Virus record (IMG/VR): IMGVR_UViG_3300032288_001213
Coordinates: 1 to 28,455 of that record
DNA length: 28,455 bases
Origin: a virus
Strand: one strand, 5' to 3'
This document shows, one piece after another, positions 15,207-25,806 of the stretch. Within the stretch, counting starts at the first letter, position 1, and each line of letters starts with the position of its first letter. The translations under genes and the position numbers were made by a program. The notes below the pieces were generated by a model. It did no database searches, was not told where the DNA came from, and worked only from the letters and a program-made list of their open reading frames with translations.

Positions 15207-15698
15207 ATGCAAACATTTGTACCGTTAACAAGCAGTGCTTCAGACATTGCAAAAGTGCTTGACAACAAGCGTCTCAACAAGCAAGCCCTTGAGGGTTGGC
15301 AGATTCTTATGACTCTGCTTGAATTAGACCCTGAAGGCAACCATCGTAAACCCAAAGGCTGGGTAAACCACCCTGCTGTCAAAATGTGGCGTGGTCACGA
15401 AATGGCTCTATTTATGTATGTTCAAGCGATGGTACATGAGTGGATTAACCGTGGCTATAAGTCAACCATTGGAAATAAGGCTTGGAACACAGTTCAAACT
15501 GCTATGGAAAGAAGACTTATTACTGATGAAATTACTACTCCAGAGTGGCTTGAAAACAAAGAATTGTTTGAGAAAGTGGCATCTAGTCACAGGCTAGCCC
15601 TACTCAACAAAGACTATGAGTGGTACTCACAGTTTGGTTGGAACGAAGATACTGGCACTAGACCAGAGTCTTACGATTATGTATGGCCCGTTAATTAA
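15207..15698 (+). CDS. Pyrimidine-dimer DNA glycosylase family protein (Pyr_excise type)
   Basis: This 163-residue protein matches the layout of the Pyr_excise family, which includes small actinobacterial proteins distantly related to T4 endonuclease V. Recognisable blocks are MQTFVPL at the N-terminus, SDIAKVLDNKRLNKQALEGW (12-31), NHPAVKMWRGHE (53-64), EWINRGYKS and the C-terminal SSHRLALLNKDYEWYSQFGW with YVWPV. The family excises UV-induced cyclobutane dimers, cutting beside the lesion. The start ATG has AAAGGA in front and is driven by the strongest promoter in the window, so it is probably made early and in quantity. Enzymatic activity is inferred from the family; some members are uncharacterised. 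Confidence 0.82.
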   Translation: MQTFVPLTSSASDIAKVLDNKRLNKQALEGWQILMTLLELDPEGNHRKPKGWVNHPAVKMWRGHEMALFMYVQAMVHEWINRGYKSTIGNKAWNTVQTAMERRLITDEITTPEWLENKELFEKVASSHRLALLNKDYEWYSQFGWNEDTGTRPESYDYVWPVN

Positions 15699-15752: not shown

Positions 15753-16094
15753 ATGAAAGATTCACGCATCGGTGAAACTCTGTGGAGTGAGTGGACTGGC
15801 AACAACTACGAGCCAGAAAGACTCTTTTCCACAGTTTTTTATACCGAAGAACACGTGGATATAGAGCACGAGGTAGTTCGTCGTGCACTAGCATCTGTAG
15901 TGCAAAGAGACGGACACACTGATTCACTTGGACAAGCATTCAAAGTTTTAGATTTTTGTCATAACGAACAAGGTTATGCAGGAATTGTTGATGGAGATAC
16001 TGAATTTACCCGCTGCGACGTAAACGGAATGACAATTTATGAAGACACAGTAGAAAAAGTTATTCCGATTACGTGGGTGGGTATTAATGTCTGA
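15753..16094 (+). CDS. Small protein co-transcribed with WhiB, function unknown
   Basis: This 113-residue protein is not recognised. The ATG at 15753 is chosen because it lies 9 nt after a TATAAT box; an in-frame ATG at 15735 would lie upstream of the predicted transcription start. The sequence begins MKDSRIGETLWSEWTGNNYEP, has an acidic helical centre and ends in a strand-rich part (MTIYEDTVEKVIPITWVGINV). There is no cysteine motif or membrane segment. Its stop overlaps the start of the WhiB gene by 8 nt, so it is translationally coupled to it and may act with it or be autoregulated through the dyad promoter. Confidence 0.6.
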   Translation: MKDSRIGETLWSEWTGNNYEPERLFSTVFYTEEHVDIEHEVVRRALASVVQRDGHTDSLGQAFKVLDFCHNEQGYAGIVDGDTEFTRCDVNGMTIYEDTVEKVIPITWVGINV

Positions 16095-16557
16095 TTCATT
16101 TAAAGACATGTCTTATCAAAAAGACGGGCTTTGTGCAAAAAAAGAAAATTCTAAATATATGGATTACTTCTTTTCTGAAGAACCAGAGGAGAAGCATCAA
16201 GCAAAAAATTTATGTTTTCAATGTCCAGTTAGGAAAGATTGTATTAAATATGCACTTGAAAGTAAACAAATTTGGGGGATATGGGGCGGTAAAGATGAAA
16301 ATGAAATTCGTAGAACTTTATCTGTGGACGCCAACGGTGACGAATACCGCAGAGGTCGTTATCCCCAGTGTGGTTATTGCTCTGCTCGAACTAGCAAATT
16401 AAAAACTTATATTGTTGATTTACCAGGCGGTGGAAGATGGACAACCGCTCGAATGGTTGAGTGTACAGAATGTGGATTTATTTGGCGTAGTAGAACAAGT
16501 TTTAATGCTATAAATTCTTACAACCAAGACCGCTCTGAAAAAAAGTCTAAGAAATAA
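16087..16557 (+). CDS. WhiB-like Fe-S transcription factor with added zinc ribbon
   Basis: WhiB-like proteins bind a 4Fe-4S cluster and the principal sigma factor and are essentially confined to actinobacteria and their phages. The four cluster cysteines are C16, C43, C46 and C52 (C-x26-CxxC-x5-C), followed by the family turn GIWGG (64-68) and ENEIRR. Beyond it, where most phage WhiB proteins stop, lies a second module with CGYC (C95, C98) and CTEC (C126, C129), a probable zinc ribbon with a basic end. Total length is 156 residues. The start overlaps the preceding gene by 8 nt and the stop overlaps the convergent cytidylyltransferase gene by 11 nt. It probably redirects host or phage transcription. 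Confidence 0.93.
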   Translation: MSDSFKDMSYQKDGLCAKKENSKYMDYFFSEEPEEKHQAKNLCFQCPVRKDCIKYALESKQIWGIWGGKDENEIRRTLSVDANGDEYRRGRYPQCGYCSARTSKLKTYIVDLPGGGRWTTARMVECTECGFIWRSRTSFNAINSYNQDRSEKKSKK

Positions 16558-16978
16558 TTCTGTTTTTTAATTCTGTAGTGCTTATTCCGTTTGTGTAGGG
16601 TAAAAATCCAAATCCAATGTTGTGCTTTTCTAGCCACTCACGAGTAAAACCCATTTGTTTCATGTAATCTTTTTCGCACCAATCGGTACCAGTGACTACA
16701 AAATCTGCTTGAACATCTAAAATTACTTGCCTTGAATCTTCATTTCCATAATTTTCTACTACTAAATCTACATATTTACAAGCAGATACTACTTCAATTC
16801 TTTCTTGTAGCGACATAACTGGTTTGTAGCCTTTAAATTTTTCTACAAATTCATCTGTATTTACGGCAACAATCAATAAGCCGTCTTGACCAGCCATATC
16901 TTTTAATCTTTTTAAGATTCTCACATGACCTGAATGAAATAAATCATAGGTTCCACCGTTGTAAATTCTAAGTCCCAA
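16547..16978 (-). CDS. Cytidylyltransferase-like nucleotidyltransferase (TagD/RfaE-C type)
   Basis: This 143-residue enzyme belongs to the HxGH nucleotidyltransferase family and probably makes a CDP- or ADP-activated sugar or polyol. It shows GGTYDLFHSGHVRIL with the catalytic HSGH (H15, H18), the substrate-side RIEVVSACKYVD block, and ISTTELKNRI (132-141), the family's second nucleotide-binding motif. The start is a TTG at 16978, two bases after the glycosyltransferase stop; no ATG is available before the essential strand. It is the last gene of the leftward operon and overlaps WhiB tail to tail. Pairing with a glycosyltransferase suggests it supplies the donor. Which sugar or polyol is used cannot be read from the sequence. 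Confidence 0.85.
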   Translation of the reverse strand: MGLRIYNGGTYDLFHSGHVRILKRLKDMAGQDGLLIVAVNTDEFVEKFKGYKPVMSLQERIEVVSACKYVDLVVENYGNEDSRQVILDVQADFVVTGTDWCEKDYMKQMGFTREWLEKHNIGFGFLPYTNGISTTELKNRIIS

Positions 16979-16980
16979 GG

Positions 16981-17790
16981 TTAATCTTCTAACTCATTGG
17001 GTGAGATATAAAAATCTTCAATTCCAAGCGACTCTGGATAATTAAAAAGTTGTTTTATTTTTGGCAAAGTAGAGGTAAACCTATCCCAGTCGTACCCAAG
17101 AACGTCTCTGGCATAAAGACAAAATGCATTAATTGTTATATGTCCTTCTTCAGTTGCTCTTGCTCTGTTATAACTGCTAGAAGGCGGGTGTTCCAGTTTA
17201 AGACTTTTATCTCTATAACAATATTTTTCGTTGTAGACGGCATAAAGAGTTAATAAAATGTCAATTCCCCATCCGCTTATCATTTTTTCTGCTTCTATTA
17301 CGTTATTTTCGATAGAAGACCATTTGTAAAAGTCGTTTAAAACTTCACAAATTTCTCTAGACATTGCAAAATAAATTCCGTTGGTGCAAGTAGTTAGGTA
17401 TATGTTTTCATATCTTTTTGAAAATGCAATTCTTGAACGTGCACCAGACCAATCGTCGTTAGTGGCATTAGGAGAAAATCCTATTAATTTTGGATTGTGG
17501 CTAAAAAGTAATTCTATATATCTTGTGTATTTCGCCCAGTCTACGCATTTGGCATCTCCAGCGTTAAAAATAAATATGTCGCTATCTGTCTCTAAAAAAT
17601 CTTTTACTGCATTAAAAAAATGTCTGTAATATCTTAAATCTGGCTTTCTTTCCCAGTTTTTATTTAATTCTGGGTAAGAAGACACGTTAAAAAACTTGTG
17701 AGTTATGTTTCCATTTTCTAATTGATTGCTTATGTTTCGGCAATTTTCTATTGCTCCGTCCCAAGCAATTATGTAAGTTATGCTCTTCAT
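16981..17790 (-). CDS. Glycosyltransferase-like protein (GT-A style)
   Basis: This 269-residue protein probably transfers a sugar. It begins KSITYIIAWDGAIENCRNI, like GT-A enzymes whose first strand binds the nucleotide; the middle has SDIFIFNAGDAKCVDW (70-85), where NAGD (76-79) sits in the usual place of the metal-binding DxD. Later GIYFAMSREIC and GWGIDILLTLYA resemble the acceptor-side motifs of phage and bacterial GT-A proteins. No membrane segment is present. It begins on the last base of the metallophosphoesterase stop (TAATG) and lies 2 nt before the cytidylyltransferase, so the two probably work as a pair. Family assignment is moderate because the DxD is not canonical. Confidence 0.6.
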   Translation of the reverse strand: MKSITYIIAWDGAIENCRNISNQLENGNITHKFFNVSSYPELNKNWERKPDLRYYRHFFNAVKDFLETDSDIFIFNAGDAKCVDWAKYTRYIELLFSHNPKLIGFSPNATNDDWSGARSRIAFSKRYENIYLTTCTNGIYFAMSREICEVLNDFYKWSSIENNVIEAEKMISGWGIDILLTLYAVYNEKYCYRDKSLKLEHPPSSSYNRARATEEGHITINAFCLYARDVLGYDWDRFTSTLPKIKQLFNYPESLGIEDFYISPNELED

Positions 17791-22595: not shown

Positions 22596-23564
22596 GTGAA
22601 GATTACAATAGCAACGCCGATGTACGGTGGAATTTCGAAAAGCGTATACGTCGCTTGTTTGAGTGAACTTATGTCTAAATTAAGTGATGCTGGACACTCT
22701 GTAAAACACGTGTCTATTACTAATGAAAGTCTTATTACTAGAGCAAGAAATACTCTTACCCATATGTTTTTAAAGAGTGATAGCGATGCTCTTTTGTTTA
22801 TCGATGCTGACCACGGATGGATATCAGACGACATAGTTAAAATGGTCAATTCAGGTAAAGACTTAATTGGTGCTATTTATCCTATGAAATCCATCAACTG
22901 GGATAACGTACATGCTGCTGCTTTAAATGGTAGACCAGCAAACGAACTCCATCTTTACTCTGGAAATTTTGCAATTAACTTTTTGCCAGAAGCCCAGCAG
23001 TTCCAAGGAGACGAGCCGTTTAAAGTTCGTGACATTGGTACTGGAATGATGTTTATTCGTCGTATTGTATTTGACACTCTAAAGCCGTACTGCAAGACCT
23101 ACCACAACAATTCTCCTAGTTCTGATATTGCTATGGGCGAAGAGATGGTGGAGTATTTCCCTACAATTATTACCGAAGAGCCAGAAGCAATTTTGCTATC
23201 TGAAGATTATGCTTTCTGTCACATGTGGCGTCAGGCTGGTCACGATGTCTACGCTGCACCTTGGGTAAGAATTACTCACGCTGGAGAATACAACTTCTCA
23301 GGCTTTTTCTTAAAAACTTTAGAGATTCAGAATCAGATGGCTAGTGAGCAAGAAAACTACAATCCACTAGAAACAGTTGCCGATGATGGAAGTGCTGTTG
23401 TCAACACTCCTAGTCATCAGATGGATGTTCCATTGAGTCAAGCAGATTCTTTACAGTCGTTGGATGCCATTTTCGGAGGTTCTGCGTCGGAATCTGGTCT
23501 TGATTCAGACCCTCAGCAATCTGTCGAAAAGAAAGCCCCGAAGACCTCTCGGAAGAAATCCTAG
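22596..23564 (+). CDS. GT-A-type glycosyltransferase with low-complexity tail
   Basis: This 322-residue protein probably transfers a sugar from a nucleotide donor. The start is a GTG at 22596 with TAGGAG five bases upstream; an earlier in-frame start would read through the hairpin. The N-terminus KITIATPMYGG and NESLITRARNTL (43-54) are typical of GT-A enzymes; the metal-binding DxD is FIDADHGW (D70, D72); SEDYAFC (202-208) and ITHAG with H228 match the catalytic and metal residues expected near the end of the fold. After about 245 the chain becomes polar and ends in lysines (KKAPKTSRKKS). The last 155 nt overlap the convergent recombinase gene. Acceptor unknown: DNA, virion or host glycan. 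Confidence 0.78.
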   Translation: MKITIATPMYGGISKSVYVACLSELMSKLSDAGHSVKHVSITNESLITRARNTLTHMFLKSDSDALLFIDADHGWISDDIVKMVNSGKDLIGAIYPMKSINWDNVHAAALNGRPANELHLYSGNFAINFLPEAQQFQGDEPFKVRDIGTGMMFIRRIVFDTLKPYCKTYHNNSPSSDIAMGEEMVEYFPTIITEEPEAILLSEDYAFCHMWRQAGHDVYAAPWVRITHAGEYNFSGFFLKTLEIQNQMASEQENYNPLETVADDGSAVVNTPSHQMDVPLSQADSLQSLDAIFGGSASESGLDSDPQQSVEKKAPKTSRKKS

Positions 23565-24081
23565 CCTTAATCTCTTCTGGAGTTTTGTTTTTAGGACCCA
23601 TATCTACGCCCCAAACAATGCCACGCTCACGCCTGTCTTTGTGAACATCTTTCTGCCTAGCAGCAATGATGCCTCGTTCCATCTCGGCTAGTGCTGACAT
23701 AATTGTCACCACAAATCTGCCTTGATAGGACGAGGTATCTAAATTTAGGTCTAGCATTACCAATCGCCAATTATTAGTGTTGGCTCGGTCTATGATGCTC
23801 AAAAAGTCCTTCGTAGAACGGGCTAGGCGGTCGATACGGGTCACAAATAAAGCCTGAGCCTCTCCGCTATCCAGTCTTTTTAGGGCTTCTGATAGGGCTG
23901 GACGACCCGAAATTGACTTACCTGAGCGACCTTCTTCTCTAATCAACTCATATCTTGTGAATCCAGCCAACTCCGCTGCTTGTATTAGTTGGCGTTCTTG
24001 AACGTCTAGACTTACGCCATCGTTTACCTGAAGTTGAGTAGAAACTCTGGAATATAGTAAGGCTATTTCGTTCTGTGACAT
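23410..24081 (-). CDS. Small serine recombinase (resolvase/invertase type)
   Basis: This 223-residue protein belongs to the serine recombinases, which cut and rejoin DNA through a phosphoserine link. The catalytic serine is S14 in YSRVST; EGRSGKSISGRPAL (50-63), TRIDRLARS (81-89) and the helix ALAEMERGIIAARQK (130-144) complete the catalytic domain. The C-terminus (GLSFRQIAEGLNQDQIPT, WHPTTVKNLL, 182-214) is a helix-turn-helix related to the first part of the Recombinase domain. It is much shorter than serine integrases, so resolution or inversion is likelier than integration. ATG 24081 is five bases after the previous stop and has no ribosome site, so it is probably coupled. An earlier start at 24147 would add an unconserved stretch. 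Confidence 0.88.
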   Translation of the reverse strand: MSQNEIALLYSRVSTQLQVNDGVSLDVQERQLIQAAELAGFTRYELIREEGRSGKSISGRPALSEALKRLDSGEAQALFVTRIDRLARSTKDFLSIIDRANTNNWRLVMLDLNLDTSSYQGRFVVTIMSALAEMERGIIAARQKDVHKDRRERGIVWGVDMGPKNKTPEEIKARISSERSSGLSFRQIAEGLNQDQIPTQNLRKWHPTTVKNLLDSMEHPSDD

Positions 24082-24086
24082 AAGGA

Positions 24087-24599
24087 CTATCTGTTTAAAT
24101 GAGTTGGTTCTGGAAATGGATTTAGCGAAGTTAATGGATAACGCCATCCAGTAATGTAAGGGTCAATAAAGTAATCGTTGTCAATCACAGTATCAGCCAT
24201 CACCCAGCCGTAGATTTCTACTTCTGTGAAATACTCCATGTCTGTGACTTTACATCCAACTATTGCTTTACCCGAATCCTTACGCCATATTGGTACTCCG
24301 TCATTGGTTCTAACAGTTCTGACTTCCATGTTGCCACCGACGTCAGGTAGGTCTTTGCGGTAAGGGTGTAATTCATTTGGGTACCAAGGCAAGTTATATG
24401 GCTTATTGGTAGCCTTTGCTACTGCGTATTCGGCAACAATGGTGCGAACGTTAGCCAGAAGTTCTGGCTCTAGGCGTCCATCTTTCTTGCCTTCAGCGTA
24501 GTTTGGGCGGTCTGTGCTACCGAACTTCATAAGCCAGCGTTCTACGGCTAGCATGGTGCAAACTCGGATTTCATCTTTTGTCATTTGTACTTTAAACAT
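24087..24599 (-). CDS. Phage protein of unknown function, possible nuclease-like fold
   Basis: This 170-residue protein resembles in pattern a group of uncharacterised phage proteins with an N-terminal helical region, a helix AEYAVAKATNKPYNLPWYP, then DVGGNMEVRTVR, a basic strand and EVEIYGWVMADTVI. The E...D...ExR spacing recalls PD-(D/E)XK enzymes with Arg in place of Lys, but this is only a resemblance. The ATG at 24599 follows an extended -10 (TGG-TAAGAT) by exactly six bases and lacks a ribosome site, so a leaderless transcript is likely. A terminator just upstream isolates it from the ABC-GNAT gene. The serine recombinase follows after five bases. Confidence 0.65.
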   Translation of the reverse strand: MFKVQMTKDEIRVCTMLAVERWLMKFGSTDRPNYAEGKKDGRLEPELLANVRTIVAEYAVAKATNKPYNLPWYPNELHPYRKDLPDVGGNMEVRTVRTNDGVPIWRKDSGKAIVGCKVTDMEYFTEVEIYGWVMADTVIDNDYFIDPYITGWRYPLTSLNPFPEPTHLNR

Positions 24600-24614: not shown

Positions 24615-24653
24615 CTAAAAACAGAAAACCCGCCTAGCGAACTAGACGGGTTT
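24612..24653 (-). terminator. Rho-independent terminator with UUCG tetraloop
   Basis: Read on the minus strand, AAACCCGTCTAG (24653-24642), loop TTCG and CTAGGCGGGTTT (24637-24626) form a 12-bp stem with one G-U pair, followed by TCTGTTTTTA. It ends the transcript of the ABC-GNAT gene. On the plus strand the same stem has one C-A mismatch and no T-run. Confidence 0.88.
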
Positions 24654-24656
24654 CCC

Positions 24657-24706
24657 ACGAAAGGAGACTGGGTACTATGAACAACCACAATCTGTCAATT
24701 TCTTGA
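24657..24706 (+). other. Orphan plus-strand leader-like element with 9-codon frame
   Basis: ACGAAAGGAG (24657-24666), like the ribosome sites at 8800 and 15193, precedes an ATG at 24677 that opens only nine codons (MNNHNLSIS). Both flanking genes are on the minus strand. A dyad ACTCTT-A-AAGAGT follows at 24706-24718. It may be a remnant of a lost gene or a chance match. Confidence 0.3.
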
Positions 24707-24732: not shown

Positions 24733-25806
24733 TTATTTTCCAACATATTCGTGGGAAAAACTCCAACGGTCTGGATTTAACTCCCACCTAGTGGTTCTTC
24801 CGTTCTTGTTCTTATCGGTTCTTTTCATATGATTCTTGGACGTAGGCTTCCATAACGGAGAATTGTCACGATATTCTCCTAGTCTTGGGTGGCTAGTCTT
24901 TGCAAAAAAACGTTTTCCGTTTTCTATATAATGCTGTGCCACTACTTCAGCAATTGTATGTCCAAATCCAAAACCTTGATAGTCAGGTAGAACTACAAGC
25001 CGATGACCTCTGTAAGCATTTTTAACTGTTCCAGACGGATAACTCATAACAGAATAAAAACCTACTACTTGTCCTTCCCAGATTGCCAAGTAGCAGTGTG
25101 AGGCTTTGTTGAGCGATTCGGTGAGATAGTGGTGCGGAGCAAAGAGGCTCCAAACTTCGTTTGAGCATGGATATACTTCAAGTACCATTTCTGGTCGATG
25201 AAGGTACCTTCCCGAAGCCCATTCGCCTCTATCTGTATCTATTACCCAGTCTGGTTCTATAAATTCAAGAATGTCTCTATGGACTGTTGCTAAAACTATT
25301 CCCGTTATTCCGTTTTTTCTGACGTATCTAGACATTGCGGTAGAGGCAGCCTTAGCAACATTTCTATCTACTACAGAAGTAAACTCGTCTATTACTGCAT
25401 TGTTTTTTAAAGACCTTGCCAAATTTGCACGGAACTGCTGTCCGTTTGATAAAACGTGAAATGGTTTTACCCATTCTGGAACCGACATTAATCCTGCTGC
25501 TGAAAGTCTTTCACTGGCATCCACTGCTGATTCAAATTGTGAAGCAATGGAACCGCCGTGCCAACTTATTTTTTCTGGGCTACCAAACTCTTTTAGCAAG
25601 GTGGATTTTCCAGTACCAGATGCTCCGACAATTACCCCGATACCGAAATCTTTAGGCAAATCTTCTGGAATAAGGTATGGATAAAATTCCTCATTTCCGT
25701 CGGACACGTAGTCAAAAGGTTTAATTAATTCTTCAGTAATTTCATCCATAAAAACATAAGAAGTCAGTGGCTTATCTGAACGTTTTAATGGTTGCCAAGT
25801 TGTCAT
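24733..25806 (-). CDS. ABC-ATPase fused to a Mom-like GNAT domain (putative DNA-modification enzyme)
   Basis: This 357-residue protein joins two domains. The first (about 20-205) is a soluble ABC ATPase: Walker A GASGTGKST (61-69), signature LSNGQ (119-123), Walker B NNAVIDE (D140, E141) and H-loop H176. It has no membrane domain. The second (about 215-325) is a GNAT fold: HHYL (225-228), strand CYLAIWEGQVVGFYSV, the acyl-CoA loop RLVVLPDYQGFGFGH (269-283) and AKTSHPRL (302-309). The HY pair and the SHP segment are like phage Mu Mom, which puts a carbamoylmethyl group on adenine and protects DNA from restriction. The gene has its own leaderless-type promoter and terminator. DNA modification is inferred from Mom; the ATPase's role in such fusions is unknown. 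Confidence 0.85.
   Translation of the reverse strand: MTTWQPLKRSDKPLTSYVFMDEITEELIKPFDYVSDGNEEFYPYLIPEDLPKDFGIGVIVGASGTGKSTLLKEFGSPEKISWHGGSIASQFESAVDASERLSAAGLMSVPEWVKPFHVLSNGQQFRANLARSLKNNAVIDEFTSVVDRNVAKAASTAMSRYVRKNGITGIVLATVHRDILEFIEPDWVIDTDRGEWASGRYLHRPEMVLEVYPCSNEVWSLFAPHHYLTESLNKASHCYLAIWEGQVVGFYSVMSYPSGTVKNAYRGHRLVVLPDYQGFGFGHTIAEVVAQHYIENGKRFFAKTSHPRLGEYRDNSPLWKPTSKNHMKRTDKNKNGRTTRWELNPDRWSFSHEYVGK

Follow-up and report, generated by a model that had tools for sequence, protein, structure and literature searches.

The locus studied here raises the question of what a phage protein that joins an ABC-type ATPase to a GNAT acyltransferase (ABC-GNAT) acts upon. The window (the whole stretch of 28,455 nucleotides of virus record IMGVR_UViG_3300032288_001213) contains one such gene (Table 1), for which a first-pass annotation made from the sequence had proposed a Mom-like enzyme that modifies phage DNA. 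The ORF starts with ATG and its reading frame is intact over 357 codons; with homologs aligning over nearly the whole protein length (29 to 73% identity) and a match to PHROG 11143, it can be regarded as a genuine gene. In relatives with 69–73% identity, divergence from the window gene is found chiefly at third codon positions (78, 51, and 189 differences at first, second, and third positions, respectively, when compared with locus L003), which indicates that the gene is under purifying selection. All ABC and GNAT motifs previously read from the sequence were recovered at their residue numbers; within the GNAT half, VLPDYQGFGFGH occupies residues 272–283 and TSHPRL residues 304–309. The match to Pfam Acetyltransf_1 (32 bits) exceeded the curated cut-off of 20.7, and that to ABC_tran (22.8 bits) was slightly below the cut-off of 25. 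PADLOC returned only partial ABC matches (mad3 and mad8), which were rejected as generic. The gene had also been credited with its own promoter and terminator. The terminator was confirmed as a hairpin directly following the gene, in a region with five terminator-like sites (1.7 expected); the promoter was not, as no sigma-70-like site was found upstream and promoter-like sites were fewer than the shuffled mean.

Table 1. Positions of the ABC-GNAT gene, its parts, and associated features (window coordinates unless a locus is named)
Feature	Position	Strand	Remarks
ABC-ATPase-GNAT fusion gene	24733..25806	(-)	357 aa, stop codon included
ABC-type ATPase half, N-terminal	25195..25806	(-)	about residues 1-204
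ABC half motifs	residues		Walker A 61-69; signature LSNGQ 119-123; Walker B D140/E141; D-loop D147; H-loop H176
GNAT acyltransferase half, C-terminal	24736..25194	(-)	about residues 205-357
GNAT half features	residues		HHYL 225-228; R269; acyl-CoA loop QGFGFG 277-282; W319; basic C-terminal segment
Intrinsic-terminator-like hairpin	24621..24658	(-)	17 pairs; directly 3' of the ABC-GNAT gene
Serine recombinase/invertase family protein	23410-24147		near the ABC-GNAT gene
ParB-tail peptides	L027:3747-3872; L031:3756-3902; L179:5828-5968		and 11 other loci

The window protein is matched by PHROG 11143, a family to which no function is assigned, over residues 21–357 (E 2.5e-104), and has the complete ABC motifs, GNAT fold, and acyl-CoA loop that mark this family. 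A tblastn search with the protein returned 75 phage records, and a profile-based scan found relatives encoded in at least 549 viral and at least 367 prokaryote-genome stretches; T4-like Straboviridae phages are among the carriers. The ABC and GNAT halves are fused in most of the loci fetched. In a minority, they are encoded by two overlapping genes (Lactococcus P335, Oenococcus Vinitor-27, loci L015-L017, Thomasclavelia TR-TP2, and Enterococcus 9184), an arrangement that speaks for the two halves acting together. The pair of genes in Enterococcus phage 9184 is embedded in the gene for DNA polymerase (L314:3917-7433), with the GNAT frame continuing into sequence that carries a DNA polymerase annotation. 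Among annotated phage proteins, the nearest relative of the window protein is QAX98348.1 (48% identity over 95%, with full-length homology). It also serves as the exemplar of a published system, predicted to acylate DNA bases, in which a GNAT is paired with an ABC ATPase (PMC7824862); this source credits the prediction to Iyer et al. 2013. Section 3.4.7 of PMC7824862 assigns QAX98348.1 to Tenacibaculum phage pT24, unlike the database record, which is that of Aeromonas phage AsFcp_2; pT24 also has a homolog. Thus, the central idea of the first-pass annotation coincides with an existing prediction and, judged by its sequence, the window gene belongs to a large, already described phage ABC ATPase-GNAT family with a predicted activity. 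In the literature searched, no assay of any family member was found.

Among 69 relatives, residues G61, S63, G66, K67, S120, G122, D140, E141, and H176 of the ABC half and W219, F222, Y227, R269, V271, P274, Q277, G278, and W319 of the GNAT half are invariant. Both domains are present in the AlphaFold2 model built from this alignment (pLDDT 93.2, pTM 0.87), and a fold search with the full-length model retrieved ABC nucleotide-binding domains and GNAT acetyltransferases. The resemblance of the C-terminal domain to Mu Mom that had been proposed for this protein did not withstand comparison. BLASTP yielded no significant homology to Mom (E 0.21), the Mom HMM (PHROG 1384) did not match the window, and a GNAT profile built from 69 sequences, compared with nine Mom proteins by HHalign, gave probabilities of 0.9–3.8% (single-comparison E 0.01–0.06), the alignment being restricted to the segment around HHYL, which was paired with KHYS of Mom. 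The Mom motifs HYS, ELNRxW, FADxRxG, and A-NF were all present in the Mom members aligned; in the window protein, a counterpart exists for the HY pair alone. When a model of the GNAT half on its own (pLDDT 93.1) was submitted to Foldseek, the closest match was a putative IAA acetyltransferase; the best 50 matches included RimI, Gcn5, Naa50, and phosphinothricin acetyltransferases, and the solved Mom structure 8bv8 was absent from them. A placement with ordinary small-molecule or protein acetyltransferases had been named beforehand as the outcome that would speak against Mom-likeness, and it is the placement obtained. Homology of the C-terminal domain to Mom was accordingly not supported; its resemblance to Mom consists of membership in the GNAT superfamily, in which the literature also places Mom, and of the HY pair. 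As a fold cannot name the substrate, this lowers the notion that the protein is a Mom, but not that it works like one.

With a pI of 9.2 (versus 5.3 for the ABC half) and a family median net charge of +11, the GNAT half is basic, which would be in keeping with nucleic acid binding. The comparison of synteny among homologs that had been suggested as a check was carried out on about 190 loci, in which genes were called, neighbors clustered, and redundancy reduced to 135 groups. A ParB-like gene is located directly upstream of ABC-GNAT in 39 of the 135 groups (this and the other neighbor frequencies are indicative, as ORF calling was heuristic and the best-scoring loci were sampled), as opposed to a total of 12 placements of ParB-like genes in any other position or orientation. 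The two reading frames often overlap by four or more bases. Three ParB neighbors that were scanned matched phage ParB families and PHROG 498; the latter is labeled DNA methyltransferase, and it is its ParB-like part that the ParB partners match. Genes for the large and small terminase lie downstream in many loci, and genes of a recombinase cluster just 3' of ABC-GNAT in several relatives. A formyltransferase with an HPSLLP motif occurs in 14 of the 135 groups, directly downstream where clustered, and the ABC-GNATs accompanied by it fall together into a single clade in the tree of ABC-GNATs (SH-aLRT 100). In most of this clade, a stand-alone peptide of 41–81 aa is encoded directly upstream of ABC-GNAT; it matches the ParB partner's C-terminal tail (consensus IPEKFQILVECEDEAEQRELYERLTEEGLKCRVLTL), which renders its annotation as "acr candidate" in Porphyromonas gingivalis phages doubtful.

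These neighbors bear on two readings in which DNA is not the substrate. The protein might be an acetyltransferase for small molecules that was combined with an orphan transporter-type ATPase and acquired as a host-fitness gene; in structure, a putative IAA acetyltransferase and transporter ATPases match it best, and the split form is labeled ABC iron transporter in several records. However, no permease is annotated beside the phage copies examined, nor is one found among the recurrent neighbor clusters, and both the occurrence in T4-like Straboviridae phages and the linkage to ParB, terminase, and formyltransferase render this reading most improbable. In the phage copies examined, the ABC half therefore does not have the partner permease expected for the nucleotide-binding domain of an ABC transporter. 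The second reading, modification of RNA (tRNA or phage mRNA) with ATP hydrolysis presenting the base, derives from a structural match of the full-length model to TmcA (2zpa; E 1.2e-5, rank 23), the tRNA(Met) cytidine acetyltransferase. Like ABC-GNAT, TmcA combines an ATPase and a GNAT in a single chain, and its target is a nucleobase. Unlike ABC-GNAT, its motor is a helicase-type ATPase rather than an ABC ATPase, and it acts on RNA; the match itself is weak (TM-score 0.17–0.30) and the recurrent neighbors of ABC-GNAT are DNA-handling genes, so that modification of RNA appears quite unlikely. Genomic context thus favors DNA as the target of ABC-GNAT.

A second line of evidence stems from loci in which ABC-GNAT and Mom replace one another. 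Across 8 kb of tail genes, the P. gingivalis phage 011a is about 91–92% identical to phages 015a and 012a, and the identity in the final 92 bases is 83%. Between these flanks, 011a carries the tail peptide, ABC-GNAT, and the formyltransferase, whereas 015a and 012a carry Mom, which a scan of the whole genome did not detect in 011a. Among ten related Mu-like Porphyromonas phages, the right-end slot holds ABC-GNAT and the formyltransferase in five, Mom in four, and both cassettes in none; phage 010a matched neither ABC-GNAT nor Mom. A whole-genome scan likewise found no Mom in the ABC-GNAT carrier Enterococcus phage 9184, and vB_EfaS_159, which is collinear with it, has Mom just after the DNA polymerase gene. 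For a third possible swap, around Pseudomonas phage Komp_PAO1_1, the collection searched held no close relative. ABC-GNAT and Mom do occur together in Aeromonas phage AsFcp_2, and of 23 records, 3 contained both, an in-frame stop being present in two of these. The exchange at one slot suggests that the two systems are equal in function, although Mu-like phages carry cargo in a slot at their right end, so that a swap there need not imply this.

The same observations have to be weighed against the reading that the GNAT half acylates a protein (e.g., ParB or terminase encoded next to it, host RNA polymerase, or a host restriction enzyme), with the ABC half sensing or regulating and DNA perhaps bound but not modified. 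The protein acetyltransferases RimI, Gcn5, and Naa50 are among the nearest solved GNATs, ParB and terminase are frequent neighbors, and Rac, a GNAT encoded by a phage, is cited in PMC7824862 as acetylating host RNA polymerase. Against this, many phages, including those of the window's clade, keep ABC-GNAT with neither ParB nor terminase nearby, the slot that ABC-GNAT takes is that of a DNA modifier, and fold similarity does not indicate the substrate. We therefore consider protein acylation unlikely.

The window itself represents the plainest form of the system. Its gene falls into a supported clade of 22 rows in the ABC-GNAT tree, in which no ParB, tail-peptide, or formyltransferase partners were detected. 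In the window, neither a ParB gene nor a ParB-tail peptide was found, nor a formyltransferase near the ABC-GNAT gene; the gene is flanked by a recombinase and an uncharacterized gene on one side and by small uncharacterized genes on the other. Among 11 related records of the clade, including contigs of 72–74 kb, neither ParB (0 of 11) nor Mom was present. This clade is, thus, a stripped-down, one-gene version of the ABC-GNAT system. Elsewhere in the window, a pyrimidine-dimer DNA glycosylase (15207-15698; Pfam Pyr_excise, E 5.5e-19) and a cytidylyltransferase-like protein (16547-16978; Pfam CTP_transf_like, E 1.1e-21) are encoded, the latter gene adjoined by that for an unassigned protein of 269 aa (16981-17790). 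The product of 16087-16557 is, judging by its cysteines and GIWGG motif, presumably a WhiB-like protein, which would indicate an actinobacterial host.

The best explanation, and one we hold to be rather probable, is that ABC-GNAT acylates bases of phage DNA and thereby protects the genome from restriction. Of the initial proposal, the role as a DNA modifier stands as a hypothesis, resting on the published prediction, the linkage to ParB and the formyltransferase, and the exchange with Mom; the resemblance to Mom does not. The structural match to TmcA, an ATPase-GNAT with a tRNA base as its target, is also in line with this explanation. The gene and its family, the fold, the intact motifs, the genomic partners of relatives, and the exchange with Mom are observed; we infer DNA as the substrate, the anti-restriction role, ATP-driven access to the base, and the identity of the acyl group. 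The ABC half would probably dimerize upon binding ATP and then clamp, distort, or scan DNA so that a base is presented. The GNAT half, holding acyl-CoA via R269 and the QGxGxG loop, would transfer the acyl group to this nucleobase, and the acylated phage genome would escape cleavage by host restriction enzymes. A ParB-like protein, or just its C-terminal peptide, may act as partner in many relatives, and in one clade the formyltransferase might act next, perhaps elaborating the added group. More tentatively, ABC-GNAT could constitute an ATP-coupled alternative to Mom that produces a novel base modification and exists in two types: a composite operon of ParB-tail peptide, ABC-GNAT, and formyltransferase, leading to a formylated or otherwise one-carbon-elaborated base, and a minimal type of one gene, such as that in the window. 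If the prediction is true, it would entail a way of modifying DNA that, unlike that of Mom, includes an ATP-driven step, and this in a widespread family encoded on hundreds of viral and prokaryote contigs. The acylation of DNA bases had already been predicted; new is the tie between the ABC-GNAT family and Mom through locus exchange. As the exchange occurs in Porphyromonas phages and carrier phages such as Lactococcus phage P335, Pseudomonas phage Komp_PAO1_1, and Arthrobacter phage EastWest are culturable, the prediction can be tested by nucleoside mass spectrometry.

Compared with known systems, the window protein is closest to the PHROG 11143 family and its member QAX98348.1, with which it has in common both domains, their order, and the intact motifs of each; unlike many of these relatives, the window copy is a solo gene with no ParB, tail peptide, or formyltransferase nearby. 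COG2401 probably represents a comparable fusion, of an ABC ATPase with a predicted acetyltransferase. Mu Mom (PHROG 1384; PDB 8bv8, where it is named methylcarbamoylase) is, like ABC-GNAT, encoded by phages, and both contain the HY pair in the aligned first segment. They differ in that Mom is devoid of an ATPase, whereas ABC-GNAT has an ATPase half and, in addition, the canonical QGxGxG acyl-CoA loop.
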